Shown: one piece after another, positions 11,214 through 63,323 of the stretch
Numbering within the stretch: the first letter of the stretch is position 1
Layout: each line of letters starts with the position of its first letter
Origin: Xiphias gladius
Lineage: Eukaryota; Chordata; Actinopteri; Istiophoriformes; Xiphiidae
Assembly (NCBI RefSeq): GCF_016859285.1
Contig: NC_053411.1
Coordinates: 1,489,501 to 1,553,500, forward strand
Length of the DNA: 64,000 nt
Reading direction: 5' to 3'
Program-made: the position numbers and the translations under genes
Notes under the pieces: model-generated
Databases searched by the model: none
Seen by the model: only the letters and a program-made list of their open reading frames with translations
Told to the model about the DNA's origin: nothing

Positions 11214-14200
11214 CGAAAACCTGACATCCCTCTGTGCTACAAAATACGAAGCTATCAGACCATCCAACAAGGAGTTCAGACAAGAGTATAAATCCTGCCA
11301 AGTCACTGACCAGAACTCACAGTAACAGTAAATCTCATTACAGAAATGCCCAAGATTAGTTTGAAGTCATGTAGAAACAGTGTTTTCATTCTATAATTTT
11401 TCCTCTGAAGAGCACTGACAAGTTTATTTTTACACTGTAAAATGTCTCCTTCAGAACAAATCTTGGTCACAATTATTTAAAAGGCAAATTTAAGGGATCC
11501 TTATCAAAAATGTGTTTTTATTATATGAATTAATGTGAAAACAATTATTAAAAAAATACAATCCAGGCAATTTTTTATAGCCACACAAAAGGTTGCAAAA
11601 TGATGACAACTCCAAAATAAACGCAGAATATCTTCAATATCTAAAATTAACATTTCTAATCCTCTAAATCCCATTTAGTATTTGAGAGAGGAGCTTGTAT
11701 GAGATTTTTAATTGAAAATTTGTTGTTTTGGTATCTGTGATACAACCAAAAATTATAGAGACCACTAATATTACGTTTTTGAGGCCAAAACCAATATTAG
11801 GATTTGAGGGTTTAGAAAATCTGATAACCATGTATCAATTGCTGTTTATTTTTACATAAATAAACATTTTCAATGAGAATCCCTCATTCATTTTTTATTA
11901 AATAGCTGTTTGTTTCTGTTGGACAAACTACTGTATGTAATGGAGACAGTTTCTGATCTACCTCTAAAATATATTTGGCATTTCTGTATTGAAATTTCTT
12001 GTTGCTTCTTGGCCTACATATACACTGATATATATCTGTCTTTCTTCTTTGCTTGAAGATACTCTCAGAATTTGTTCTAGCACCCTGAAATGTTCTCCCA
12101 GTTCACTGTTGACGTTTGTAGCACTGTAGTTAATAGTTACATGGGGCACAATAACAAAATCCAGAAGCCAGAATATACTGTATGTTGTTTCTGATATCCC
12201 TGTTTCATATTCATATAATCGGAAACAAATTCACTTGTAGGTGTTGAGGCATTTCCACACCAGCCCAGTATGTGCCAAGAGTCAGCCTGTACCTGAAGAG
12301 TTTGTTAATGAGAACAAGAAGAAGAGGGATAAGTCTTTGATCACCCATGATGACCTGTTCGAGCAGGTGGCCAAAGAGGCCAAAACCAAAGCCACCTTTA
12401 ACAAGGTGGTGGATGTCTTCACCAAGAGAGACATAAGACGGCGGGGTCATGTGGAGTTTATCTACGCTGCTCTGAAGAAGATGCCGGAGTTCGGCGTGGA
12501 GAAAGACCTTGCTGTCTACAACAAGCTTTTAGATGTTTTTCCCAAAGAAGTGTTTGTGCCCAGAAACTTTATCCAGCGAATGTTCAACCACTATCCCCGA
12601 CAGCAGGAGTGTGGAGTGCAGTTACTGGAGCAAATGGAAAATTATGGTGAGTATCTGTTACAAGATTCAATCTGCTAGTGGAATTCTTGGAATGCTGTCA
12701 AATTTAGAGAGGGTTATTCCAGACAGGGAAAGGAAGGGATCTGGAAAATTTCACTCAAGATGTCAAGGAATTATTTATACATTTTACAGGAATATAGCTG
12801 TGTTTGTTTATCTTTATTTTAAATGATCCTGTTTCAGGTATTATGCCCAACATGGAGACCAAAGTCCTGCTGGTCCAGATTTTTGGAGAGAAGAGCCACC
12901 CCATGAGGAAGTACCAGCGCATCATGTACTGGTTCCCCAAGTTCAAGCACATAAACCCCTTCCCCATCCCCCAACAGCTGCCGGAAGACCAAGTGGACCT
13001 GGCTCGCTTCAGCCTGACTCGTATCGCCAATGACCTGGATGCAAAAGTTACCATCTACCAGGTACAGCTGTAGGCTTTGTATAGGACATAGATGTTTGTG
13101 CATTAAGTACGGAGCCGGAGTCACGATGTGGTTAACCTAGCAGAATAAAGACTGGAAAGAGCGGGAAACAGCTAGCCTTGTTCTGTTCAGCATCCAAAAA
13201 GTCACCTACAGTGGCAAGAAAAGTGAGTGTCTTAAAATATGGTCAGTTCTTCATCTAAGTTACAATTATGAACAAACAATCTATTTTAACTAATAACACA
13301 GAAATCATTGTGTTGTTCCTGTCCAAAACAGAATACATCATTCAAACATCAACTAAAGGTAACTTGAGTCAGGAGTTTACAGACCTGGAGTCCAGTCATT
13401 GAAACCAGACTGGAGGTGTGGGTTAGAGCTACTCTGATTTATAGAAAACACTCAAACATTCTGAGTTTGCTATTCACAGGAAGCATCTGCTGAAGTGAAC
13501 CATGCCTCATAAACAACAGATCTCAGAAGACTTACCATCAAGAAACTGCAGATTTGCATAAAGCTGGAAAGGGTTACAGAGAAATCTCAAAGAGTTCAGA
13601 TATTCATCAGTCCACAGTCAGACAAACTGTCTATAAATGGAGATGATTTAGTTCTTTGGCTATTCTCCCTAGAAGTGTTTGTCAGCTAATATGACTCCAA
13701 AGGCACAAAGTGAATGTTCAATGAGGTAAAAAAGATGCCCAGAGTAACATCCAAAGGCTTAAAGGAATCATTGGAACTGGTTCACATGTCTCTTCATGAG
13801 TCTACCATACACAAATCACAGTGCATGGAGCAAAGTGTCCATGGCAGGAAGCTGCTGCTCTCCCAAAGAAACATCACTATATGCCTGAAGTTTGCCAAAG
13901 AGCAGCTTGACACCACAACACTGCTGGGAAAATGTTTTGTGGACTGATCAAACTAAGGCCGAATGATTTGTGAAGAACATGCAGCTCTACGTATGGTGTA
14001 AAAAGGGCGATGCATGCCAACATGAAGCATCTTGATTTTTGGCTTTGCTGCCTCTGGGCCTGGACACCCTGCCATCATCAAGAGGAAAACGAATTCCCCA
14101 GTTTATCAAGGTATCTTACAGGATAATGTCAGGGGCGCTGTCCGCCAGCTGAAGCTCAGTAGAAGTTCTGACTTCAAACAAAGAAAATCCACCTTTTGGA

Positions 14201-17200
14201 GTGGCCCAGTCAGATCCCAGACCTTAACCTGACAGAGATGCTATGGAAAGGGCTCAGAGAGCAGTTCACACCAGAAACCCTAAGAATTTGGCTGAGCTGA
14301 AACAGCTCTGTAGAAGAAATGATCCAAAATACCTCCTGAACATTGTGCAGGTCTGATCTGCAGCTACTGGAAGAGCTTGTTTTTGAGGTTGTTGCTGCCA
14401 AATGAGGTTACCAGTTATTAAATCTAAGGGTTCACTTACTTTTTCCACCAGCACTGTGAATATTTAATGGATGTGTTCAATAAAGACCTGAAAGATTAAA
14501 GTAGTTTGTGTTTTAATAGCTTAAGCACGTTATGTTTATCTATACTTGTGACATAGATGAAGCTCAGTTCACATTTTCTGACCAATTATGCAGAACACCA
14601 GGTTTGAATCTGGTTTGTTTTTTTCGTTTTTTTTTTAACCTGTGGAATCGAACCAGAAAATTCTGGTTTCACTTCAGCTCTCTACAGCTCAAACACAGAA
14701 AAGAGCTTAACCTTCGGGGAAAATACCAACTGCTCTACTTTGTTGTGCCTTTTATTTTATTATTTTTAACTTAATTGTCATCAATTTAACAAATCAAACA
14801 ATCTGTCCTTGCCAAAAATAATGTCTGTTCATTTGCTCTTCCAACTAGCTGCCCTGTACAGATGTTACAGAGAGGGGAGAAGAGCTAACACTTCCACATA
14901 TAGTAGGTATGGAAACAACTTGTCTCAAGTTTGATTATAATGGTTTCTAAGATTTCCAATGCTCATTGAATTTTGAGAGTTGTTTCTGAAACAGGTTAAG
15001 TGAGGGGTTTATAATATATTGACAAGAAAATTTTGTTTATTGCTGTAGTCTTATAGAAATATATAACAGATGTTGTTTTCTTTGACAAATAATAGCAGTA
15101 GATGATTTTTAGCCCAAATGGAAAGGAAACTAGAGAACCAACAGTAACAAACCAGGAAATTTTATCCATCTTAGTCATGAAAAGTAATGTTTAAAGTATT
15201 ATATTAGTACAATCATGGGATCATATCATAAATACCTGGACTTTGGCTTACTGTCTTTGTTTCCTGTCCTTCCTGTGCTGACACCAGGTATCCAGAGCCC
15301 CAGCCAGATGGAGCTGCTGGCCAAGCATAACCCGAGCAGGCCCGTGTTTGTGGAGGGCCCCTTCCCTCTGTGGCTGAGAAAAACATGTGTGTACTACTAC
15401 ATCCTCCGAGCTGACCCCACACCACTTGATGAAAAGGTGGGAAAACCCTGTTTTAACCCATTTGTTGTGTTGTTGTGTAAAATCAGTGTTAAATAGTCAT
15501 TCATTTTAAATAGATTAAATCAATATATCTATCATTTTTGAAGGAACAGTGAAACACTTGGGGTAAAAATAACATTAAAATACCGCTTCTGTCTGACCCC
15601 CGCAGTCTGGATGTGAAAGTGCTGTGTGGAGCAACTAATTATACCCAACAGGAGTTACCTGCTTTCTGTTTATAAATTAAATCATCAAACCCCATGTTTT
15701 CTTACATTTTAATCAGAAGAAATGCATCAATTAATAAAAACTGAATCCATGTGATACTGTAAAAGTGGATGTTTTGGTTTTTTAGATTTTAACCTTTATT
15801 TTAATGGCATTTGATGACTATAATTTCAACATAGAACAGAAACACTTAAAATGTAAAATCCTTTACTTACATTACAGTGTTGTACACAGGTTAACAGTTT
15901 AGGTGCCACTGCAGTTATGGCAGCTAGTCTACTTCTATCTACTACTTGAATTGGTCTATAAATTAAAGTCCAACCCTTTTTTGGATGTACCAAGATATAA
16001 TGTGTGAAGGAGACAACAGTTATATTCAGTAGTGTTGCTGTGATATATTTTCTGGTCACCAGTGGCAGCACTGAGCACTGCTGAGCACCTTTGCACTCTA
16101 TGAGTGAGAAAGAAACCTTGCACCTTCTTTTACTTTGCATGGTTTATATTGACTTTAATGGGAGGGGCCTTTCTCGCTTGAAGTAAAGCATTTCTTTGTA
16201 ACTTTACATCTGCATGATGTCTTTTTTTTCCCCTCTTTATAAGTCACGAAGAAGATTGCCCTGACAAATTTTTGAGCTGCTCAGTGATTGATATGTCCAA
16301 GTTATGGAAGTTAACAGTCCAGGACATCCTGGATCACGGCTGCTCACAATAGTATCTTTCCAGACATCAACATGATACAGAATGGTGTTTTTTACTCATG
16401 GAAACCATCTTTGGCTCAGTCTAAACAGTATAGACAGCAGCATATTGTTTGACCAGCTTACTGAATTAATGTTTACTAGCTTCAGCTGACTGAATTTGCC
16501 AGCTACAGTTGTCTTTAGGGCTGGAGAATTTGACGGGAATGATAAAAAAACAGCCAGTGGATAGGCACATTGTGAGTCATCTAGGAATTGTGCCCTTTTC
16601 TCTCAAAAAAGATGGCTGGATCTTTGCAAAGCTCAAGGAAAAGCAAAGGAAGCTTCAAATTTTCATTCTTTCCCATGTCTGATTATGTTCTTCTAATTTT
16701 ATCCAGTGAATGTTTCATAGTTACACTGAAATCTCTCTGCATCACCACTGCAGATGTCACTAATGGAGCTGTATCTATGTGTCTCGCCAAAGGTAGAGGA
16801 GCTCTATGATCCAGAGAGATGTCTGGACTATCCTTTGCAGCTAGACCTGGATTTGGATCTTGACCTCGGAGATGACGAGAGCTTTGATGTAGAAGATTGT
16901 AAGATATTTACAGCCATCCTTGTAGTACTCTTGTTTAACAGAAACCATCATTTTCAGTGTGTAATGCAGCTGTTGTGTGTCTCGTGTATCCAGTGGACGA
17001 GGGCCCAGTCTTTGCCATGTGTATGACCAGTCAGGGAGACCAGGCCACCCTTAACCAATGGATCTCTGGCCTCCAGCAGAACAACTCCATCCTGGGTCAG
17101 GTCCCCACCCTGTTTCGTCTGGACTCTGGGCCCCGGGAGCTGAAGGGGGCAGCTGACACAGAGTCAGGCCACTCCCACAGGCCTGAACCAGAGACTCAGA

Positions 17201-17280
17201 AAGAGGAGTCGCAGCCTGAGGAAGAATCTGAGGTTATTTTGGAAGAGGAGCTAAGGAGGAGCCAAGGGATGAAACAGTGA
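10865..17280 (+). CDS. ecsit: ECSIT, complex I assembly factor and Toll pathway adaptor
   Basis: Seven coding exons: 10865-11005, 12241-12646, 12838-13061, 14849-14906, 15288-15436, 16793-16898 and 16994-17280. All join in frame at GT/AG junctions to give 456 residues (human about 431). The start ATG at 10865 opens [11 protein letters not shown], a basic, serine-rich leader consistent with mitochondrial import. Recognisable conserved blocks are [41 protein letters not shown] (exon 3), [19 protein letters not shown] (exon 6) and [10 protein letters not shown] (exon 8 side). The 58-base exon at 14849 encodes the PHIVG linker before IQSP. ECSIT acts in mitochondria with NDUFAF1 and ACAD9 in complex I assembly, and in the cytosol bridges TRAF6 and MEKK1 in Toll and BMP signalling (established for the family). 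The acidic run LDLDLDLDL around residues 340-350 is a local feature. A Tc1-type element sits in the intron 13.06-14.85 kb. Identity is near certain; the exact splice at 16898/16994 is the least certain junction. Confidence 0.96.
11151..11210. repeat. (TG)30 microsatellite
   Basis: Thirty uninterrupted TG units in the first coding intron of ecsit. The open frames through it are artefacts. Confidence 0.95.
11395..11560. repeat. Dispersed repeat, copy of 18.16 kb element
   Basis: An 'AGAGCACTGACAAGTTTA' block, then TTTTTACACTGTAAAATGTCTC and, further on, CTTGGTCAC and AAGGGATCCTT, recur in the same order near 18,161-18,590. This is an unclassified non-coding element inside an ecsit intron. Confidence 0.55.
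13207..14607 (+). mobile_element. Decayed Tc1-type DNA transposon with long inverted ends
   Basis: The left end, TACAGTGGCAAGAAAAG, begins next to a TA dinucleotide. The sequence following it (CTTCATCTAAGTTACAATTAT region) is the reverse complement of the right end near 14,500-14,600 (ATAGATGAAGCTCAGTTCAC region), so the inverted ends are about 200 bases, as in IR/DR-type fish Tc1 elements. A broken transposase lies between: the segment 13714-13947 ends in [16 protein letters not shown], and the later frame 14032-14232 holds [14 protein letters not shown] and [10 protein letters not shown]. These correspond to the catalytic-core region and its downstream segment. Stops and frameshifts make it inactive. 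It lies within an ecsit intron. A related copy lies at 62.44-63.54 kb. Confidence 0.8.
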
Positions 17281-21069: not shown

Positions 21070-23680
21070 CTGTGAATCAATCACATTATCTTTGCAAATC
21101 TTAATTTTCACCTGTTATACAGTAGTGGGTTGTATTTTTCAAGGATATTTTTATGATCCCACAGATGTTTACCAAGTTCCTGGAATGATTAAATGATTGG
21201 CCTGGACGTTAAATCTACTATTTTGTTGCTATACTGGCCACTACCCCATCCTGCCCTAGCTAGCACAGTGGTGTAGTGAAGTTGAACAGAGTAGCACAGT
21301 TTGTGTAATGGTTTAAAGGGTTTTGCTTCAGGCAAACGTGTTATTCAAGGCAGACAGACATCTGTGGCATCACAAAAATATCAGAAAAATTGCAATTTGA
21401 AAACAAAATTGAAAATATCTTTGAAGAAACAACCCACTGCTAATAACAGGTTTTAAAAAATGATTTAATTGATTTTTCCCCTAGAGTTTGCAGAGACAAC
21501 ACTACCAAATAGCAAAGTTGTGCAAAGAGTGCTAAGGTCACAAATACGGCTAGGATTTTGCATGTTGCTAAAAAAAATTTCAATGCTCTTATCACAAAGT
21601 AAAATGAGAAATAAACAAAGTGTACCTCACCAAGACTTTGATGTCTCCTGCGTGTGGTTCCATTCTACTTGCTATCAGTCATGTCACCAAATGATGTCTT
21701 AAAAGCAATCAGCAAAGAAGGAAAATTGCCACCTCTGGTCACAGTGGCCACTGTCTGTGGGAAAGGAATCTATCAGACTGGACTTCAAGTCTATGGGAAA
21801 CACTGGATATTTATAGTTGCTGAGGTTTAAAATGGTCGAATTTAATGGAATAACTGAAGATTTTAGGAAGTATCGCAAGGATCAAAGTTTAAAATCAAAT
21901 CAAATCAATGTAATGTTATCTGTGTCCATTTCAGAGATAAGTCCACGATGAATTTAGCCTAGCTTAGCACAGAGACTGTGAGACAGAGACTTTCCAGAAT
22001 GTTGAACTTCTCCTTTAAATATTTTAAATATTGTCACAAAATCTCAATTGTGGCAGCTTCAGTATAAAAAAATGTCCATATTGACTTTTGACTATTGACT
22101 TTCCTGGTAGGAAATAAGGTTAAGATGCTTTTTGGGGTGAGGACAGCATTCTCTTTCAAGGTGACTTTCTATGTCGGTAGACAAATTGATTTAAAAAGTA
22201 CAATAAATAAAAAAGACATAGTGTGGGTTTTTTCTCCTGGTCCATGGTCTTCAGTTGACTCCTGCAGTCACGTTCTCTGCTGATCAGTTCTTGTGTGCTT
22301 CTGCAAAATAAGTCAGGCAGGTTTGGCAAATTAATAAAAATAGCAAAAGGTCTTGCATGGAGAAAAAATTGTTATGATGCTCCTATACAGCCTAAGCAGA
22401 GCCTAAGCAGATGTTTTTTCCTGAAGTCAGTGCTAGAGAATGGGTTATCAATCTGGGGGCCCTTAGATTATTAACAGGATTAAAAAAAATCTTATTTTTC
22501 CACACTTGCTCATAAAATACTGGATAGTGATAACGGATCTCTTCAGGCCTCTCTTCAAATTAAGCAGACTAAGAAGGAACTGTCATCCTTTCATCGAAAC
22601 AAGTGATAGGACATTGCCATATGGACATTACTTCAATTTAAAGCCCTTATTCATAGGATTTAAACATTTCTGACTTTGGCAACTCCAAGTGATAATTTCA
22701 AAAAAGACACCGTAGCTGTCACAAAAAATGTATGCCTTTGAAAAAAGTTAAAAGATGCTATGATTACATAAAACTTATATACAAAGGGGCTGGAAGAGAT
22801 CACAGTCCAAAAAGGTTGGAAACCATTCCACAAAAAGAAAGGCCATGAAGCCTTTCAAATCAAATGGAATCATCCTCTTGGGAGCTTGAACGAGTTGAGC
22901 AAATTTCAGAAAGTAAAATGTCTAGAGTGCAAATGGCCCCGAAGGTGGTAGTAGAGGAAAGCTAAAGGAGTATCCAAAATGAAATGGGTTTAGTCTCTGG
23001 GGAGCATGAATGTGCACGGTAAATGTAATGGTAAATTTTCCATTTTGTACAAATGGAAAACTTCACCTGATGGTGGCGCTAAAGGAAAGGTCAGAGGGTC
23101 ACCAAAACATCAGGAATCATCTTTGGGAACCAAAATAGCATGACTATTCAGCTTCTATAATATATAACTTCAACGGCACTCTGGCCACAGGTGTCGATTC
23201 CAGTGTAATGGCATACTGAATTTTCTTAATTTCCCAATATTTTTAGTCAGTTGCTATTAAGCTGCACTATTCATATTTTTAAACTGACAATGGATCAAAT
23301 GACTATGTATAATGTGACAGTTTTGGTTGTTAGTTATGAATCCACAATTGCTACTATACTAATACAACAGTTTCCCTTAGCTCTACTGAGCATTGTAGGG
23401 TCTTTTAGCTCATTGTTTTGATTTTATTGACAGCTTAATTTCAGTGTTGATTCATTCCGACTGTGCTGAACCTATTGTATACTACCTGCTCAGTAGCAAA
23501 CAGCAGACAGACACAGTCAGAGAGCAGCTGGTGAACATAGTGGAACATTTAGCGGCTAAACAGCCACATTTTTTTCTCAGTTGTTGGTGGCGACCAAACC
23601 AGAGCTAAAATGAGAGCAAATTGTGGATTTGTCTTTGGCTCAACAAGTCTCCAGATGAGATGAAGTGTGTCTAATTCTTA
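21070..23680. other. No gene seen between two inverted repeat copies
   Basis: The stretch holds short repeat-like pieces (for example near 22,440) but no transposase or other coding region I can recognise. It may be the interior of a non-autonomous element whose ends are at 20.75 and 23.9 kb. Confidence 0.35.
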
Positions 23681-25785: not shown

Positions 25786-28700
25786 TTCAATTTTTCCTGC
25801 TTGACAACGGATCTCTCACATTTTTCACAAACTGCCAGTTAACAACATTGTTATCTCTGATCATAGCCCAGTCTAGATATGCATTCCCCCAAAAGTTTAG
25901 CGCCATAGCACACTTGGCGACTAGACCCTTTGTTGCTGTCCAGTAATAAATTTATCAAATTTATAAATTAACAAATTGACATTTACCTAGACATTAACTC
26001 GACCCTGGTTATGTCATACACTATAATCTAGGAATCCCTCAAAGCCTACGTTAGAGGACAGATTATCTCTTGCTCAGCTTTCGGGAGGAGGAAGCACACA
26101 AAAAGTCTTTCAGAACTGTCTGTACAGATGATAGATACTGACAAGAGACCTCCAATGACCATAAATCTGAATTATATAAGGAACAGCTACTGTTGCAAAC
26201 TGAATTTGACAACTTGTCAATTAGATATACTGAACAGCTTTTATAAAAATCAAGACAAACATTTATGAAAATGGCAACAAAACAGGCAGACTGCTATTTT
26301 GCCAATTTAAACAAGCGGCAGATAACAGCTATTTCAGAGATCTGTGTGGCACCTGGTGTTACTTCCTTGCATCCCAAAACTATTAACGACAGTTTCAAAA
26401 AATTTGATAATTATCTTTCTACAACAGAGACCAGTGTAGACATCTCTGAGGTTAATGCTTTCCTTGACAAAATATACATTCCAGTGACTGACCTAGAAAC
26501 TCAAACTTGCCTTGATGCTACTATATCTTGTCAGGAAATTACACAAGCTATTAATTCTATGCGAAGTGGCAAAGCAGCAGGACCAGATGGGTTTCCCATA
26601 GAATTTTACAAATCATTCTCTTGAAAACTATCTCCTATCCTGTATACTGTATACCAAGAATCACTACTGAAACAGAAACTACCTGAAACGATGACATAGG
26701 CAGTCTTTTCGGTTTTATCAAAAAAAGGCAGATACCTTACACTGTGGGTGCCTATATAAGCCTATAAGCATTCTGTGTTCTGACTACAAAATTCTCACCA
26801 AGATCCTCTTGCAACACACTGAAATAGTGATTCCTAACATCATTGTACCTGACCAAAGTGGTTTTATACCAGACAGGCAATCTTTCTACAACATGCGTAG
26901 ACTGTTTAATGTGCTCTACTCCTCTCATTCTGCCCAGCAAGCAAATGTTGTACTCTCCATAGATGAATGAAAGTATCTTCCCACTGTTCTGGAAAGATTT
27001 GGATTTGGCCCGTCATTCATTTTGTGGATCAGACTACTTTATGCAACCCCAAAGGCGTCAGCACAAGCCAATTTCATATGTTTACACTATTTTCTCCTTC
27101 ATCGTGATGTTAGACAAAGCTGCTGCCTATGTCCATAAATTATTCAATATTGCTATTGAACCATTGGCTATAGTCCTTTAAGCAGATGAAAAGATAGCTG
27201 ACATGGTGAATAGCTGGTATAGTGAGAGGGGGCTCTACCCATAAAGTTTCTCTTTGTGCGGATGTCCTCTTTCTCTACATGTCTAATACAGTAGAATCCT
27301 TACCTCGGCTTTTAGACAAGTTCCACCATCTCAGAAAATTCTATAAAATTAAACTTTTCCAAAAGTCTGGTTTTTCCTATTAACCAAATAGCAATAGATC
27401 GTACCTACAATAACTTTCCATTTAAGATGGAAAATCAATCATTTACTTGTCTGGGAATTACTGTTACACGATCTTATGACGATTTACAGTATATGGCCAT
27501 AACTTTATAAATTTATTAGACCATACAAAACTGGATCTTTTGAAATGGGCATTTCCCTTTGCAGGCAGGGTTAAAGCAATTAATGTGATAATGCTGCCTT
27601 GTTTCCTATATATGTTTCAAAATATCCCATTCTTTTTACCTAAATTTATGTTTCGAGACCTTGACAGTCACATCTCTGCATTTGTTTGAAATAGATCCGA
27701 GCCATGATCAAAAAGAACCCTCTTAGAGAAACCTAGAACAATGGGAAGACAGGGATTGCCTAATTTTATGTTTTATTACTGGTCAGCCGATGTAGCTAAA
27801 GTAATTCATTGGATTGCAGCATTTGAAAATAAAAGTTGCTTCACCTGAGCCCTCATGGAGCCCATTTCTAATCCCATAGCCTCTGCGATATCCATACTGA
27901 GTTCTCCACTACCCAGAGGAGCTATCAAACAGGTGAATAATCCTGTGATAAAAAGCGCTCTCTGAATTTGGCGTCCGTTCAGAAAACACTTTAATTTCAA
28001 TAGTACATGTGGCCATAATCCCTATAACCATCTCTTAACTCCCTCCCAGACTGAGGCAGCATTTCCAATGTTGCATAACAACAGCTTGATTTTTTTTAGC
28101 GATATATTCATAGATGGCACTTTTGCCTCTTTTGAAATTCTCTCACAGGACCTTAATATACCTCTAGGCCTGCAGCTTCACCAAAAAATACTATGGAAGG
28201 GATACAAGGGAAATTTTTCTAAAATTATATTAAATTATCCAAGCTATTAGTTTGCCTTCCCTGGATAAAACTAAATCAAAAACTAAACCGTTGTCTCAGA
28301 CATTGCCTTATTCAATTTAAAGTCTTACGTCATTTACATTTCAAGAGAGAGAAACAAATGCTATCCCAGTGTTGATCCTATATGTATTAGGTGCCACATG
28401 AACCCGAATGTTTTGGAAATGCCCATCTTTGACTACGTTTTTGGGGTATTATCTTTGAAGCCTTCTCATGTATTTATCGTAAGACATTTGAACCCAGCCC
28501 AGTTACTGCTGTTTTTGGAATTCCCAGAGTGGTTGTAGGCATCACTACAGCACAAGCAAACCTTATGGCATTTGCCTCACTACATGCCCAGAGACTTCTT
28601 CTCTGCAACTGGAAGTCTGACAAGCCCCCAACAATCACAAAGTGGATCAAAGAAGTGCTATCCTTAATTCCATTAGAAAAAGTCAGATATAAGAGATGCA

Positions 28701-28876: not shown

Positions 28877-28940
<64 letters not shown>

Positions 28941-28949
28941 CATATTCAT
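28866..28949. repeat. 84-base palindrome made of CT, TA and GA runs
   Basis: Left arm ATGAATATGTTTC followed by (CT)n, a central (TA)n, then (GA)n followed by GAAACATATTCAT. The outer non-repeat arms are exact reverse complements, so the whole block can form one hairpin. It lies in the 3' part of the L1-type element. Confidence 0.9.
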
Positions 28950-29013
28950 ACATCTATGAGACATATATATAACTGGATATCTCTGTACACTTATTTCAGT
29001 GTAGACAGACATA

Positions 29014-29030
29014 GATATATATATATATAT

Positions 29031-29082
<52 letters not shown>

Positions 29083-29104
29083 TGTCTGTCTGTCTGTCTG
29101 TCTG
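29014..29104. repeat. TA, TG and TCTG microsatellite cluster
   Basis: A TA run, then about sixteen TG units, then six TCTG units, in direct succession. Inside the 3' part of the L1-type element. Confidence 0.9.
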
Positions 29105-29646
29105 CATATATGTATATATACCTTTGCAAAAGGTATCTGACTATGGAGTGGTTACAAAGCCCCTTTTTTCTCACACGTTTAATTCATAATTATTAATGAA
29201 TTATTCTTATTTATGTATCTTTTCTTATTTATTCTCATTTATTTAGTTGGTATTACTATTGTTATGTCTGGAGATGGTGAGGGGGGGGTGCATAAATGTT
29301 TGTGTGTATATTTTCTGAAAAACCTATAAATAAATTTAAAAAAAACAAACAAAAAAAACCCTGCATGTATTCAGCTGAACAACATACACATCTTTCATGA
29401 AATTTTTAAAAATTTTACATGAGGATTATTGTGTTATTTCTTTTTTCAAAAGTTACACAGTTTCACTGTAAAACGTAAAAAGATGTAATGGTTAATGTAA
29501 CCAGTAGTTGTTGGGATATTTTCCTCTGAACCAACACTATTGCAGCAAAACTGTTGGTCTTGGGCCTTTTCAATTCTTGTACAACCATATATATAAACAA
29601 TACGTTAACAGCTAGCTTGCCCTCTATACACATCTCTTCTCTAAGG

Positions 29647-32600
29647 TCAAACTGTACCTGTCAGGGACCCGCTGTGCTGCTGGAGTTGGCTGGTGAAGAA
29701 GCGTTCTCGCCGGGACACCTGCTCGTCCCAGGCCTCCAGTATTCGCTGTCTCTCCCCAGGTTCCAGGGTCAGGGTGTCTGGATGGGCCTCATCGATGTGC
29801 GCCCTCACCCCCTCCAGGCTGTGAGAATATTGCAGCTCCCCACACACCATGCACACCAACAACTGGTTGAGTGGGTCGTAGTCCATGAGGTAACTGTTCC
29901 TCCACACGACATCTGAGACAGAACCTTCCTCACCATTGTTATTCTCATAGTCACCGAACAGTAGCTCTGACTCATCTGTAGAGACAATAACGGGAGAGTA
30001 AGTTTTGTGCTAGTTTTGCCATTTTAATGTGCATTCTTTTTGGTTCAAAGTGACAGAGTTAATACTCCACCTTCTACTGGCGCTGTGTAATTTGAGTATG
30101 GAAACGATTCCAGGTCGTTGTCCACTGAAGTGCTGTGAAAGGAGAACAGTTTCATTAATCCTTATTCTACACAGAGCCTGTAGCAGCAACGCCAAAGGGG
30201 AGCAAAACACATCTCCCACCTCATAAGATGTTCTGACTCATCAGAGGAGCTCACCCACTGACCAGAATCCTACGGGGATTCGAGAGACAGAAAAAAAATT
30301 AGGGTTTGAGAAAAAATTCAAGATCCTAATAAACAAACTTAAAGTAAGTTCATACTGTACCAAATGATTCCTTTTTTTTCTTTTTTACTGTATGACAATA
30401 AAGTAAATGTAACCTCACCTCATTCATCTTAGGAATTTAGTGAATAACTTTGTGAGGACAAATAGAGAGACATCATGCTGAAACCAAAACGTGCATGATT
30501 TGCGAACATACATTTAACGCACAAACAGACTATCATACCATTGTCTTCAGTTTTCAGTAAGAATGTAATCTTTGCGTATTGAATTATGAATAATCTGTGC
30601 TCTTCATCATTTAGTATGACCATAATGATTAGACAGAGCCTGTACGCCACAAAACAGGTTTTTGGTATACCTGTAGAGCTCTGACCTGTTTCGGTAGGTC
30701 CTGTGCAGGTAGAATGGGCCTCCAGCTGTTGGAAGCTCTCCTTTGGGTGATTCCCTTGTCCTGAATGGCCTTCCTGGCTCTCTGCTCCTTCTTTTTTATT
30801 CTCCAATACTCCCGCTTCCTCCTTAGAAAGTCCTCTTCAGACTCCCCAGGGATGGGTTTTGGTGGAACCATGGTGCTTATAGGTGCTAGCTTAGTGAGAG
30901 GTTGTATCATATGTGTGGTGCTCTGAAGTTGAGAACAAGGGATTTTCATTGAACTGAGGGTTGAATTTGGTGTTTGACCAGGGGGTTCAATGGGTTGCAG
31001 GTTGATGCTGGACAGTGGGTTGTCTGGAGGCTTCAGAGTAGGGAGGGAGGGTGCTGAGTCTACATCTGTGCTTCTAGAGATCCACTTTCGTGAACCTAGC
31101 ATGGCTTGTTGCTGATTCTCAGGAGCTCCTAGGTAGTCAGACATGATCTGTGAAGGCCCTATGTTTATGTTGTTCTGCTCACTTCTGGGTGAGCAAGAGA
31201 CACTGGTGACGGGCAATTTGACCTGGAATGAGTCAGGTGACTGTTCAGCATTACATGTTGTAGGGCTAACAACCAGGACGGTAGGTATCCCGGTCACTGC
31301 AGTCAGAGAAGCAATCGATGGCTTGGGTTGGAGAGCTGGTTTTGCTTGAGGATTTGCCCCCTTAACAGTATTGATGATAACGAGATGGGGAGCCTGAAAG
31401 ACAACAATACAACATCAACAAAAAATGAAAATATCCAGAGATCTGTCAATAATCTTTCTGAAACATGCACATAGAGTATGTTTGCCCTTAGTTTTAAGTG
31501 GGCCCCTCTAGGTCAAACGCCCCTTTATTTTTGCTGTGAAAGTGTCGAATGCCAGAGAGAGGTTTGCAAGACTGCCCTAAGCCTCATGGTGTGGGCACCG
31601 ATATCTGTAGCCCCATGAAACAAACAGAGCAAAGGTTTTTCTTTTGATTGTCTTATGTTCTTAGCTTAGATAAACTGAATTCAGTATAATCAGGGTTAAT
31701 CATCCATCAAGAGTCAGAAGGTGGTAAAAGTTTCACTATTTTTCACTCTGGCCACAAAGTTTTGAGGCAATAATATCTAAATACCTCAGTACACAGAGTG
31801 TATGGAGTCCCTAAGAGGACATGAGCAAAAACTCTTTTTCCCCGTAAGTTTCTGGTGCACATCAGATAGTATCCCATGTGCACCAAATACTTTGAGTGTA
31901 CAGCAGACAGCTTCTGGTACACATCAGAAACTAAACTAAATTTTCTTTCCTCATATACATACTGAGTTAGCCAAACTTGATGTCCCTCTTCCAGCTACCC
32001 ACCGTCCCACACATTTCTGTGATTCAATTGTTTCTCTCATAGCTAAAACATGTTCCTGGGGTTTTCAGTTCATCATCTCACCTTCATGGGTAACCACAAC
32101 AATACAGGCTAGCAAAATTTGAATACCTTCTCATTTTAATAAAGGCTGGGTAGCATATTGTTAGCATTCAACAACAGTATATCATATGAGTTTTAGCCTG
32201 GGGCCCATAGTTAAAGCTTCTTGGGGGCTAATCATTTTTGCCACGATCAAATGGAACTTGTGATGTTGTATTTTAAACACGTATGCAATATGCTTAGTGT
32301 TGAAGTGGTTGTAAGGGTAGAGAACACTGTCAACACTATTGACTGACAAAATAAATGGACATTAAAAACTGTGAATTATTTTGTGTTGTCAGATTTTCTG
32401 TGTCACACTGGGAATATGAAAAGGCTGACAACAAAAGTAATAATGAAAAAAAAAATTCAAAAGTAACTTCCATTGAAAAAAGTTTTAAAAACATATACCA
32501 CAACTCATGAACAAAGATCTTTCTGTGAATTCTTTCAGCTTACAATGATGTGAATGCCACATCAGTGGGTCTTTTGAACGGACTCTCATAAACACAACCA

Positions 32601-35600
32601 CACTCTGACGCTTTCTTAATGGAAACGATCAGGTGCTCAAATTTTACAAAAAATATCCGTATCATGTTTCAACTTTTTAGAAAAAGTGATTAATCAAATT
32701 CCAATGCTAAAGGAACAAAAGCTAGCCAGCGAAGGGGGCGGAACTTATATATAGTTCTATATAGTCTTTGAGTGTTTCTTTTTCTAAACTTTGCCCCCTG
32801 AACCCTCACACTATCTGTCGAAAACCCAGTAAAATCAATGCAAAACAATGCTGTATCAAGCATTTTGAATATTAGCTATTTGTAACAGTATTGGCTATTT
32901 GTTACTCGGCAACACAATATATGAAAACATCTAAACTCTGCAGATTGTACAAAATAAACATTATTCCCATGTGTCACTTCACCTGGATGTTTGTTGGGGA
33001 AAGATGACTGCTGCATTCTCCCTGTCTCTCTTTCTGCCTGGCCTTTAACCTGGCCCTTTGCTGCCGCTTCATCAGCTTCCAATACTCCCTCTTCCGCTGC
33101 AGGCTGGTCAAGCCGCCCTGCTCAGTGCCCACACTGCGATACCTTTGTGCTGATGGTGAGTTGCTATTTTGGCATTGTTCTTGTGCCTGACACTGTTGTT
33201 CAACGTGCTGTTGCTGTGGGTGTAGTTGATCCAGGGGTAGATGATGAAGCTTTGGTGGCTCTGGGGAGTAGCAGTTTTGATAGTCCCCTTTTTTGTTTCG
33301 AAGCCTCTGGGTTCTGGGTGGTGAAGATGGACTGCCAGAGGCTTCTGTCAAGGGGTTTACTATGAAATTCAAAGTGGTTTGGGAGGAGTGATCACAGGTG
33401 GGATGCAAGACTACCTCATTGGAGGTAGGAAGAGGTGGAAGTGTCTCACTAATATGTGATGAGTCTTTGAGATGAGGGCTTGGTGAACCTGCTTGTACCA
33501 AGGCATCAGTGTCTGGCTGCCAGCTTTTTATCTGCAATGTCAGGTCAGCAGCCATAGGAGCCACCTCATCTTTTTCAAAAAAGAGCTGAGGTAAATTTGT
33601 CTTTGTCTCTTGCTCTGAAGCCTCTTCCATTGTCTCTATTTTAATATCACTCTGCTCACTTTTACACTCCCTCACTGTGCTAAGTGATTCTTCCAGGAGT
33701 TTCTTCATAGAGGCCACTGCTAGCAGAGTGGTAGCTTGGCTGTCTGCACTCAGAACTGGATCGGACTCTGGCTGGGGCACTGGAGGTGATCGTGGGGAGG
33801 TTGGGGGTTTGATATCTGGACAGATGGCTTGTTCTGGTTGAGAATTTAGGTCAACTGCTGGCATAGACTCAGTCTCTTGTTTTATCTCATTTGCATTTGG
33901 TGTAACAGGCACGCTGTTGTTTGGAAGAGGTTGTGCATTTTCTGTATGGTTAGTAAGACTACTGCTCAGTGCTACAGTGGTTACAGCTACTTGCTTCTGG
34001 GCCTTCCTCCTCTGTAAGGCTGCATTGGCCCTTGCTTGTAAGACACCTTGCTTCAGTTGCGCTGCACGAGCTGCTCGCTGCTCACGTTTCTTTATCCTCC
34101 AGTACTCCCTCTTCTTTGCCATTCTCTCCTCCTCTGTCAGCTCTGGATCCAGAGAGAGTGCTGATAGTGATGGCGTGCTACTTGAAACGGCCATTTTCAT
34201 GACACAGCCACCAAGTTTTGACCCTGCTGTTGATCCTTCAGAAATGGCATTTTGAGGGGTTGGAGGATGAGTGAGTGTGAGCTGACCTACAGTTTGGATT
34301 GGTAATGGGTGTGAATTAGGAACAGTTGTGCTTTCAAGTTGAGTCCTTGATCTGACCGACATTAGTCTTGGAGGCTTGTTGACTGACTGTCCAGAAAGAG
34401 GAAAAGAGCCTTTCACCTGAGCTGGGCGGAGTGCAATGGGAGTCTGATTTATCCTAACAGGTGCAATTCCTCCCCGTTTCGTATTAGGCTGATGTTGACG
34501 TTGTGTAATGCGGGTATTATTGGAACTTACATGAGGTTCTTCTTCACTTTTATGTGCTGCTGTGATGTGACCTGTCGGACCCTGCGGAATGTTAATGGTC
34601 ACTGTCCCATCCTCTTTGATGAACCCCCCAATGGTCTCAGAGGCATGGGTAAGAGTGTTTCCTGCTGATTGTGTCAGTGCTCTGGCCTTCCTCATCTCCT
34701 CTAGGATTTTCTGGTAGCGTTTCACTCTTCGCATCAGAGAGTCCTTCTCCTTCAACCGAGCCTTCACCTCCATCGACAGTTTAGCTCGCTGTTCGCGCTT
34801 TTTAATCCGCCAGTACTCTCGCCGTTTGGCTATTATCTGCTCAGGGGTGTCCTTAGGGTCAATTCTGGGGATGTTTCTGGTACTAAAGACTGAAGAAAGC
34901 AGCGGGGACTTACATCTTATGTTTCTTTGATTCATGAAATTCTTCTGGGCATCAATGAACCTTTGTCTAGGTGTTTTACATCGTGCAATCCCTCGGTTAA
35001 CATTAGAAAGATGTACATAACTTAGAAACTTCCTCTGTGATTCCCCTATTTTTTTCACAGAAATAACATCTGATGCAATTGCTGTCAGTGTTGTCCTATT
35101 CTCATGTGGATTTTGTACTTTTTTCTGACTTACTTGCAGGTTAACTGTCACTAAACTTGCTGCCCCACTTTGCAGTTTATTAGTTTCCCTTTTGGCAGAC
35201 GTAAATGAAGTTTTGACCCGTGTAGGACATGGCCTCTGGCCCACTCTTTTCAAAAACGACTGAGATGGAAGATGTTGAAGAACCCTGCCACCCACGAGTC
35301 CTGTTTTTTGTGCTATTTGCCTCTGTACCATCATCTCTGCACCCTGCGTCCTCTCTCTGGCTTTATTTATCCGAGCTGCTAGCTTTGCTCTCTGTTCTCG
35401 CTTTTTTATCCGCCAGTGCTCTCTGCGCTTGGCTGCTCTCTCCTCCTCGGACTCTATTGAAGGTTGTGAGTTGCCAACACCTTTAGCCCTCTGTGTGGTG
35501 ACCAAGGCACTCTTTGTTCCACTTTGAGGTGTTGTGTTTGATGTTTTGCCCTCTGTTTTAATAGAAAGGGGGCCACATGGAGAAGACACAAGAATCATAC

Positions 35601-36303
35601 CTGTGGTCACATTGGTGGGTAAGAGTTTGGGCTGAATGCGTATTGCAACTTGTGTCTTATGTTGCATTTTAGAGACTGATGTGCCCTGCATAGACACACA
35701 TGGCTGAGGTGTTGTTTTGGCGGAGCTGCCATTGGTAATTCTTGTCATTCGGACGGGAGGCACTGAGGAACCGGTGTTCAGCTGGGCTCCACTAGGTTTG
35801 GGTGAGGTAACAGCTCTGTTCACAGCACCCCTTGCTGTTCGGCATTTAACTGTGGCTGTTCTGCCCCCAGCAGCTTTGGCTGAGATGGAACATGATGCTG
35901 GCAACTGAGGCAAGACCTTGTTGAGTTTAATTGTCTGGAACCACTTCTCCTTTTGGCTTTCAGTGGCTTCAAGTGAACTGTCCCCCGCTGTATTTCCACT
36001 CTGTGAGGCAGGAGAGACATTGGCCGTTTGATATGACTCATCATTACCCTGCATAGGAGAAGAAGGACTTGAAAATGAGCCAGATAAACTGGAATTCACC
36101 ACTGCAGGGGCGTTTCGATGTAGGAGCTTTTCCCCTTGACTGTCTTGTGATAGCTTTCCTCTCCGCTCTGACAGTCGGGCTCTCTGCTCTCGTTTCTTGG
36201 TTCTCCAGTATTCTCTCTTTTGGGCGAGGGTGGCATCATCATACTCTGAGGCAGGGCGGTAGCGGTGGGACGCTGAACCACCTTTACCTTTTGCAGTTGG
36301 CAT
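29647..36303 (-). CDS. SPIN-DOC-finger protein with six YWRIKK-type motifs, SPINDOC position
   Basis: Five coding exons on the minus strand: 36303-32983, 31393-30671, 30269-30220, 30132-30071 and 29975-29647. They join in frame (4485 bases, 1494 residues). The start ATG at 36303 follows an in-frame TGA eight codons upstream. The first exon alone is 1107 codons. A motif of consensus KREYWRIKKREQRA occurs at residues 29-42, 293-306, 494-507, 731-744, 1071-1084 and 1300-1313. Each copy is usually preceded by an acidic and aliphatic lead-in such as EEERMAK. The sequence between copies is serine-, proline- and glutamine-rich and looks disordered. The C-terminus carries one zinc finger: CMVC at 1427-1430, then histidines at 1445 and 1450, followed by ILEAW. 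The spacing equals that of human SPINDOC, which binds the histone reader SPIN1, and of ZFTA. The divergent position next to zfta agrees with SPINDOC. A nuclear, chromatin-related role is inferred from the finger and the basic motifs. The function of the motif is unknown to me. Confidence 0.85.
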
Positions 36304-36513
36304 GCTATTGCCAGCTTGGACAGCTCATCAGTTCTCATCCAACAATACCGGTTGGTTCTTCCCTTGTCACACTGATTCAGTTCATCCCGTCAGTCCACAC
36401 TCCTCACTGCCATTAACTTACATTGTGTCCTCCTATATGATGCCACAGTGGGTATTTTTGCTCTGCTGAGCAGCTGCCAAATCTCTCAGACATCACATCT
36501 GTATGCAGGTGTC
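36304..36513 (-). other. Probable 5' UTR part of the motif-repeat gene's first coding exon
   Basis: A strong minus-strand acceptor (TTTTCTGTTCTTCAG ending at 36514) precedes this stretch. It leads without a break into the ATG at 36303 and contains an in-frame stop. One or more non-coding exons further upstream, toward 39-40 kb, are therefore expected. Confidence 0.5.
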
Positions 36514-41859: not shown

Positions 41860-50652
<8,793 letters not shown>

Positions 50653-62442: not shown

Positions 62443-63323
62443 CAGTGGCAAGAAAAAGTAAGTCTTCACTGAGTTACAATTATGAACAATCTATTTTCAC
62501 TGATAATAGACATAAAGGTTTTGTTCTTGTCCATATTGAATACATCATTCAAACATTCACATTGTAGGTTGGAATAAATATGTGAACCCCTCGACCTCAC
62601 CAAAGCTAACTGGAGTCAGGAGTTAACAAACCTGTAGTCCAGTTAATGAAACCAGACTGGAGGTGTGGGTTAGAGCTACTTTAATTTATAGAAAACACTC
62701 ATTTTGAACACAAACATTTTGAGTTTGCTATTCACTGATTTGCATAAAGCTGGAAAGGATTACAGAGAAATCTCAAAGAGTTCAAATATTCATCAGTCCA
62801 AAGTCAGACAAACTGTCTATAAATGGAGACGATTTAGTTCTCTGGCTATTCTCCCTAGAAGTGTTTGTCAGCTAATATGACTCCAAAGGCACAAAGCGAA
62901 TGTTCAATGAGGTGAAAAAGACGCCCAGAGTAACAGCTAAAGGCTTAAAGGAATCATTGGAGCTGGTTAACATCTTTGCTCCATTCACCATGATTTGCAC
63001 ATGGTCGACTCATGAATAAAGTGTCCATGGCGGGACACCACAGAGGAAGCTGCTGCTCTCCAAAAAAAAAAAAACAAAAAAAAAAAACATCACTGTGTGC
63101 CTGAAGTTTGCCAAAGAGCAGGTTGACACTCCACAACACTGCTAGGAAAATGTTTTGCGGACTGATAAAACTATGGCCGAACCATTTGTGAAGAACAAGC
63201 AGCTCTACGTATGGTGTAAATAGGGCGATGCATGCCAACATGAAAACATCATCCCAACAGTGAAAAATGTGGAGGGAGCATCATGATGGGCCTGGACAGC
63301 TTGCCATCATCAAGGGGAAATTG

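Follow-up and report, generated by a model that had tools for sequence, protein, structure and literature searches.

We identified six widely spaced copies of a short motif, K-R-E-Y/H-W-R-I-K-K-R-E-Q-R-A, in a single large predicted protein of the swordfish, Xiphias gladius. The motif is confirmed as real and as having no name in the libraries searched. The gene is very likely the orthologue of SPINDOC, which has been described as a chromatin co-regulator associated with SPIN1 and PARP1 (PMC8568969, PMC10400593). We tentatively favor the reading that this fish orthologue carries a six-helix extension that would grip an acidic surface, most likely a nucleosome or nucleic acid.

The window, meaning the whole 64,000-nucleotide stretch of contig NC_053411.1 that was analyzed, was searched in all six frames with a loose form of the motif pattern, and this recovered the six known copies and no others (Table 1). 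The R of the motif lies at residues 30, 294, 495, 732, 1072 and 1301 of the predicted protein; the original prediction (29, 293, 494, 731, 1071 and 1300) gives the same positions counted from 0. Five copies are in one exon (A) and the sixth in the next (B), as had been stated. Copy-to-copy spacings are 264, 201, 237, 340 and 229 residues, so that the wide separation claimed (200-340 residues) is matched by a measured 201-340. The core had also been called nearly invariant, which overstates the case: it varies, and only seven columns (R, E, W, K, Q, R and A) are invariant across the six copies. Copy 5 is REYWKLMKRQQRA; among the others, I is replaced by T in copy 1, Y by H in copy 2 and R by K in copy 6. 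Every core has a net charge of +6 to +7. Of the acidic lead-ins expected before each copy, those of copies 2, 4 and 6 are clear (net -3 to -4), those of copies 1 and 3 are weak (-1), and copy 5 has none (0).

Table 1 Features of the six-motif gene and of its ZFTA-like neighbor, with positions in the window.
Feature	Position	Strand	Evidence and remarks
Motif copy 1, KREYWRTKKREQRA	36178..36219	-	Pattern search, copy alignment
Motif copy 2, RREHWRIKKREQRA	35386..35427	-	Pattern search, copy alignment
Motif copy 3, RREYWRIKKREQRA	34783..34824	-	Pattern search, copy alignment, model (helix predicted through motif and tail)
Motif copy 4, KREYWRIKKREQRA	34072..34113	-	Pattern search, copy alignment
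Motif copy 5, KREYWKLMKRQQRA	33052..33093	-	Pattern search, copy alignment; most divergent copy
Motif copy 6, KREYWRIKKKEQRA	30776..30817	-	Pattern search, copy alignment
Coding exon A	32983..36303	-	Holds motif copies 1-5; 1,107 codons when counted from the first ATG in frame
Coding exon B	30686..31393	-	236 codons; motif copy 6
Predicted small exon C	30220..30269	-	AG/GT ends and phase agree
Predicted small exon D	30071..30132	-	AG/GT ends and phase agree
Exon E, Spin-doc zinc finger and following helix	29658..29975	-	PF18658 match, phase, structure model
Possible terminal exon F (VKLCNF, stop), tentative	29446..29465	-	Splice acceptor and phase only
Spin-doc zinc finger, PF18658 (zf-C2H2_12)	29722..29904	-	E 4.5e-26, 90.8 bits (cut-off 27.3)
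Neighboring ZFTA-like gene	44849..50553	+	Four separate frames, one Spin-doc zinc finger each

Exons were joined at AG/GT ends with agreeing phases (entering phases of exons B to F: 0, 0, 2, 1 and 1), and in-frame joining of A to F yields a predicted protein of 1,492 residues. Exon A, with 3,321 nt of coding sequence from the first in-frame ATG at 36303, belongs to a 1,116-codon open frame (32974-36324, minus strand) with further exons downstream, and ends at the donor AACATCCAG/GTGAAG in phase 0. Exon B begins at the acceptor TTTCAG/GCT, has phase 0 in and out, and has an alternative end at 30671 that is also in frame. The open frame can be connected to the zinc finger by splicing without loss of frame; the exact splicing of A to F is predicted. 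Support is good for exons A, B and E, from their length or content together with phase; C and D are plausible, and F as the terminal exon is a guess, these last three being short and picked by splice rules. Exons A and B make up an N-terminal extension of about 1,340 residues.

The identity of the gene was assessed from its zinc finger and its neighbors. Among the 29 places in the genome listed for PF18658, the finger of this gene is the third strongest, and the five strongest (84-102 bits) are this finger and the four of a ZFTA-like gene that lies divergently oriented to the six-motif gene. The four ZFTA-like frames (44849-45037, 47659-47850, 48653-48841 and 50368-50553, plus strand) probably form one gene, judging from their order and strand. 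This gene resembles ZFTA, which has four fingers, and ZFTA and SPINDOC are divergently oriented in human as well. The neighbor resembles the six-motif gene in carrying PF18658, its four fingers being 26-31% identical to the present one over aligned stretches, but it differs in having four fingers, in lying on the other strand as a separate gene, and in containing no motif copy in its frames in the window. Since the five strongest Spin-doc fingers belong to this gene and its ZFTA-like neighbor, the gene is most likely the SPINDOC counterpart. Consistent with this, C11orf95 (ZFTA) adjoins SPINDOC at human 11q13.1, in a block that Table 1 of PMC8319724 lists with zebrafish chromosome 7. The left neighbor here, an ECSIT gene at 12241-17280 (plus strand; ECSIT_N in two frames and ECSIT_C in a third), is absent from the human SPINDOC block listed in that paper, which counts against orthology.

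The remaining PF18658 places are weaker. The sixth listed reaches 42.9 bits and has a stop inside, and 19 of the 29 pass the cut-off, leaving 14 at 27-43 bits, of which five (L038-L042) were inspected by eye. L038 and L039, on other contigs, have fingers that are broken by stops and transposon-like in appearance; L040-L042, inspected on the opposite strand only, look alike there. Among these weaker places there may be a second, diverged gene of the SPINDOC type. A protein search of the genome with the finger returned the five fingers and one other place, L009, which was discarded (E 0.47, three stops), and PF18658 gave no match over the cut-off in 14 control genomes. The structure model of exon E comprises short strands and helices with a long final helix (mean pLDDT 76.9, zinc not modelled). 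Comparison of exon E with the PDB gave six matches (best E 0.32) and the zinc-finger profile four (best DNA polymerase kappa, E 0.0037), none of which was taken as a relative, and none of the 129 PDB matches of the zinc-finger model had E <=0.001.

The repetition of the motif goes well beyond chance. All 15 pairs of motif copies, compared as 36-residue segments, outscore each of 200 shuffles (z 8-15), and RE[YH]W, which occurs six times in the real protein, is found at least once in 35 of 20,000 whole-protein shuffles. In contrast, the 15 pairs of linkers (leaving out the 14-residue first linker, and with the zinc finger included in the last) reach z 2.2 at most (3 of 100 shuffles), then z 1.3 (13 of 100), with the rest at background. 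Mean pairwise identity is 80% (57-93%) over the 14-residue core and 19% over the 10 residues at -12 to -3, 16% over the 15 residues after the core and 9% over the next 30.

Constraint on the core was assessed by pairwise comparison of the copies within this one gene (15 pairs, 14 core codons). Core dN is 0.03-0.33 in all 15 pairs, whereas flank dN, which is rough because the flanks were compared ungapped, is 0.44-1.31 on the left (11 codons, computable in 13 of 15 pairs) and 0.85-2.21 on the right (15 codons). Core dS was not computable, and was taken as saturated, in 14 of the 15 pairs and is 1.46 in the other; left-flank dS, computable in 12 pairs and equally rough, is 0.64-2.79 in 11 and 27 in one. 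Where two copies share a core residue, the codons differ in 92 of 168 pairs. Saturated dS together with differing codons indicates that the copies are old rather than recent duplicates, and homogenizing gene conversion, which would not leave such differences, is disfavored. Thus, a conserved core amid dissimilar surroundings, as originally proposed, is upheld between copies, and the core is held at the protein level and constrained relative to its flanks; the direction of this effect is strong, and its size is rough with only 14 codons and six copies. The same values make it very improbable that the repeats are an artefact, whether left over neutrally from an internal duplication or created by joining two separate genes in error. 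Such an artefact could draw on the short, rule-selected exons C, D and F, but neither the low dN and saturated dS of the core nor the 1,116-codon open frame and the agreeing junction phases fit it.

Neither the motif exons nor any of the six copies match anything in Pfam above the cut-off, and the weak matches involve one copy each (DUF4110, E 0.0076; CCDC-167, E 0.026 and 15.2 bits against a cut-off of 27; Pet100, E 0.25). NCBIfam, a prokaryote library, gave two matches far below the cut-off (E 1.5 for exon A, and 0.17). The sole PDB match of the motif profile at E <=10 is the PALB2 coiled coil (E 0.059, not significant), the best for exon A is prolyl 3-hydroxylase 1 (E 0.055, weak) and exon B matched a designed protein (E 9). 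None of these proteins was considered a relative. The view that the motif corresponds to no named domain is therefore borne out in Pfam, NCBIfam and the PDB. Long and shorter variants of the motif string had no text match in the literature searched, and the available text of that literature yielded no description of a fish SPINDOC extension.

Further copies were sought in the 690.8 Mb genome. With copy 4 as query, all six copies were recovered (the weakest at E 0.35), followed at E 2.57 by L026, which reads REGWRCKERRRRRK beside a stop, shares four of the seven invariant residues and was rejected. Copy 3 recovered five of the six copies and nothing else, and copy 5 recovered itself, three other copies and L019 (E 6.65, one stop). 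L019 was not accepted as a copy, nor was L003, which scores E 0.098, contains one stop and, by eye, has many simple repeats. An exact degenerate pattern, which fits copies 1, 3 and 4 only, occurs at three places, all in this gene, and its reversed control at none. A doubled-motif query found no genome match despite the six real copies and is therefore insensitive. At the sensitivity used, there is no further credible copy in the genome; each copy search scores few candidates (5-8), so a diverged copy could be missed. Viral contigs gave 84 matches to the pattern and prokaryote contigs 25; none was confirmed, and they are uninformative on other fish.

The motif had been proposed to act as a short helix used six times. 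Repetition of a unit with a constrained core agrees with this, and one copy, copy 3, was modelled with AlphaFold from six alignment rows, giving a single predicted helix from residue 18 to 68 (mean pLDDT 89.2, with block means of 93-96 from residue 21 on). Charged peptides are readily modelled as helices. No significant clustering of the conserved residues on a single helix face was seen: the conservation moment of the core is reached by 548 of 5,000 shuffles and that of longer stretches by about half or more. This leaves a simple one-sided binding helix unsupported. The linkers had been described as disordered and unconserved, and they are indeed mutually dissimilar; disorder, judged from composition and dissimilarity only, is probable, as the five linkers between copies consist to 37-51% of P, S, T, Q and N, and dissimilar sequences of such composition are probably flexible.

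Copy 3 runs into a heptad-like hydrophobic tail (34690-34896, minus strand; L14, V18, L28, V32, Y35, L39 and M42, with R and K at 21 and 25), so that a coiled coil is possible there. This tail bears on whether each copy is instead a docking motif that turns helical on one specific partner, such as an adaptor or a coiled-coil protein, making the extension a six-site scaffold rather than a chromatin tether. The tail and the weak PALB2 match are in keeping with docking, and the retention of W, Q and A in all six copies makes the aromatic-basic core more specific than charge alone would require. However, the tail is at best partly common to copy 2 and is absent from copies 1, 4, 5 and 6, the PALB2 match is not significant, and the strong positive charge is no less compatible with an acidic surface. 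Docking on a specific partner is a serious possibility, somewhat less probable than a nucleosome or nucleic acid and a close second to it.

The charge of the cores could also reflect repeated nuclear localization signals with no further role. This appears improbable: although each core carries +6 to +7, the predicted protein contains no 7-residue stretch with at least five K or R, and we infer that invariant W, Q and A would not be needed for such a signal. Among other short motifs, the three SUMO sites in the protein are equaled in 268 of 2,000 shuffles, and HP1, EH1, LxxLL, AT-hook, 14-3-3 and SP/TP motifs, in their consensus forms, do not occur beyond chance. The PAR-binding motif (consensus form) is found 0 times against 0.08 expected in shuffles. 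PxxP is enriched, with 17 occurrences against 9.3 in shuffles, a number reached in 6 of 1,000.

Another short basic helical unit used several times is the STPR motif, which in FMBP-1 forms four tandem 23-residue repeats that are described as flexible alone and helix-rich on DNA, and which is also carried by human ZNF821 (PMC4821344). The present motif might be a relative of this DNA-binding helix, being basic, predicted to be helical and about 23 residues long with its lead-in, and the flexible-to-helical behavior reported for STPR (PMC4821344) would suit it. In contrast to the tandem FMBP-1 units, the copies here are single and 201-340 residues apart. No tandem 23-residue arrangement was found, so by arrangement the motif is not an STPR member and at most works alike, and an STPR-like origin is unlikely.

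With its six basic aromatic helices on a flexible chain, the extension is read primarily as a multivalent binder of an acidic surface. In the favored nucleosome or nucleic-acid reading, each copy would turn helical on meeting the acidic surface of its partner, through contacts that would include the invariant R, W, K, Q and R, and six weak grips on a flexible chain would add up to a strong, spread-out chromatin tether serving the C-terminal Spin-doc zinc-finger module. The helix is predicted, and both the partner and multivalent action are inferred. SPINDOC is reported to bind the DNA-binding domain of PARP1 (PMC8568969), and SPIN1 to read histone marks (PMC8442334, PMC10400593), and this context makes a nucleosome or nucleic acid the first choice of surface. 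In mouse, Spindoc is reported to be required for the development of haploid spermatids (PMC8442334). A broader proposal is more doubtful: the motif would be a helical binder of nucleosomes or nucleic acid that has not been described before, its six constrained copies confined to one gene of this vertebrate genome, and it would make fish SPINDOC a multivalent chromatin scaffold. If true, fish SPINDOC would be quite unlike the small mammalian protein. Work on SPINDOC in mammals treats it as a small protein that partners SPIN1 and PARP1; if the fish form does have a six-fold conserved helix, a large ancestral or fish part with a binding activity of its own may be unstudied. The helix is short and well defined, which suits it to a search for partners, and its apparent restriction to one gene means that it could easily be traced across vertebrates.

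Human SPINDOC (C11orf84) has 381 residues and is not known to carry the long N-terminal extension. The fish protein resembles it in having a Spin-doc zinc finger, the strongest listed in the genome outside the ZFTA-like neighbor, and in lying beside a ZFTA-like gene, but its N-terminal part is longer by about 1,340 residues and carries the six motifs, and its predicted end comes soon after the zinc finger. A stretch following the finger is present and is predicted by the model to be helical; it may correspond to the PARP1-binding stretch of SPINDOC, residues 115-165 (PMC8568969). The peptide that docks on Tudor 3 of SPIN1 is reported as SPINDOC residues 251-293 (PMC8568969) and pairs with it as a barrel-completing strand, with no helix (PMC10400593). 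Loose patterns for this peptide, the biochemical mark of SPINDOC, gave no match in the fish protein, whose 3' end is predicted, so that it may differ from SPINDOC here too; if the peptide is truly absent, the route through SPIN1 used in mammals would be closed to the fish protein. A match to the docking pattern further downstream, at 21859 (minus strand), lies between stops and was set aside.

Several other features were observed in the window. A retrotransposon fragment at 26695-26967 (plus strand) matches reverse transcriptase with E 2.5e-5, below the Pfam cut-off. Near both ends of the window, similar translated stretches at 13880-14115 and 62954-63280 (minus strand) are probably, by eye, one dispersed repeat. 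Long TA, CA and GA simple repeats, also noted by eye, occupy 28880-29100, just downstream of the six-motif gene.
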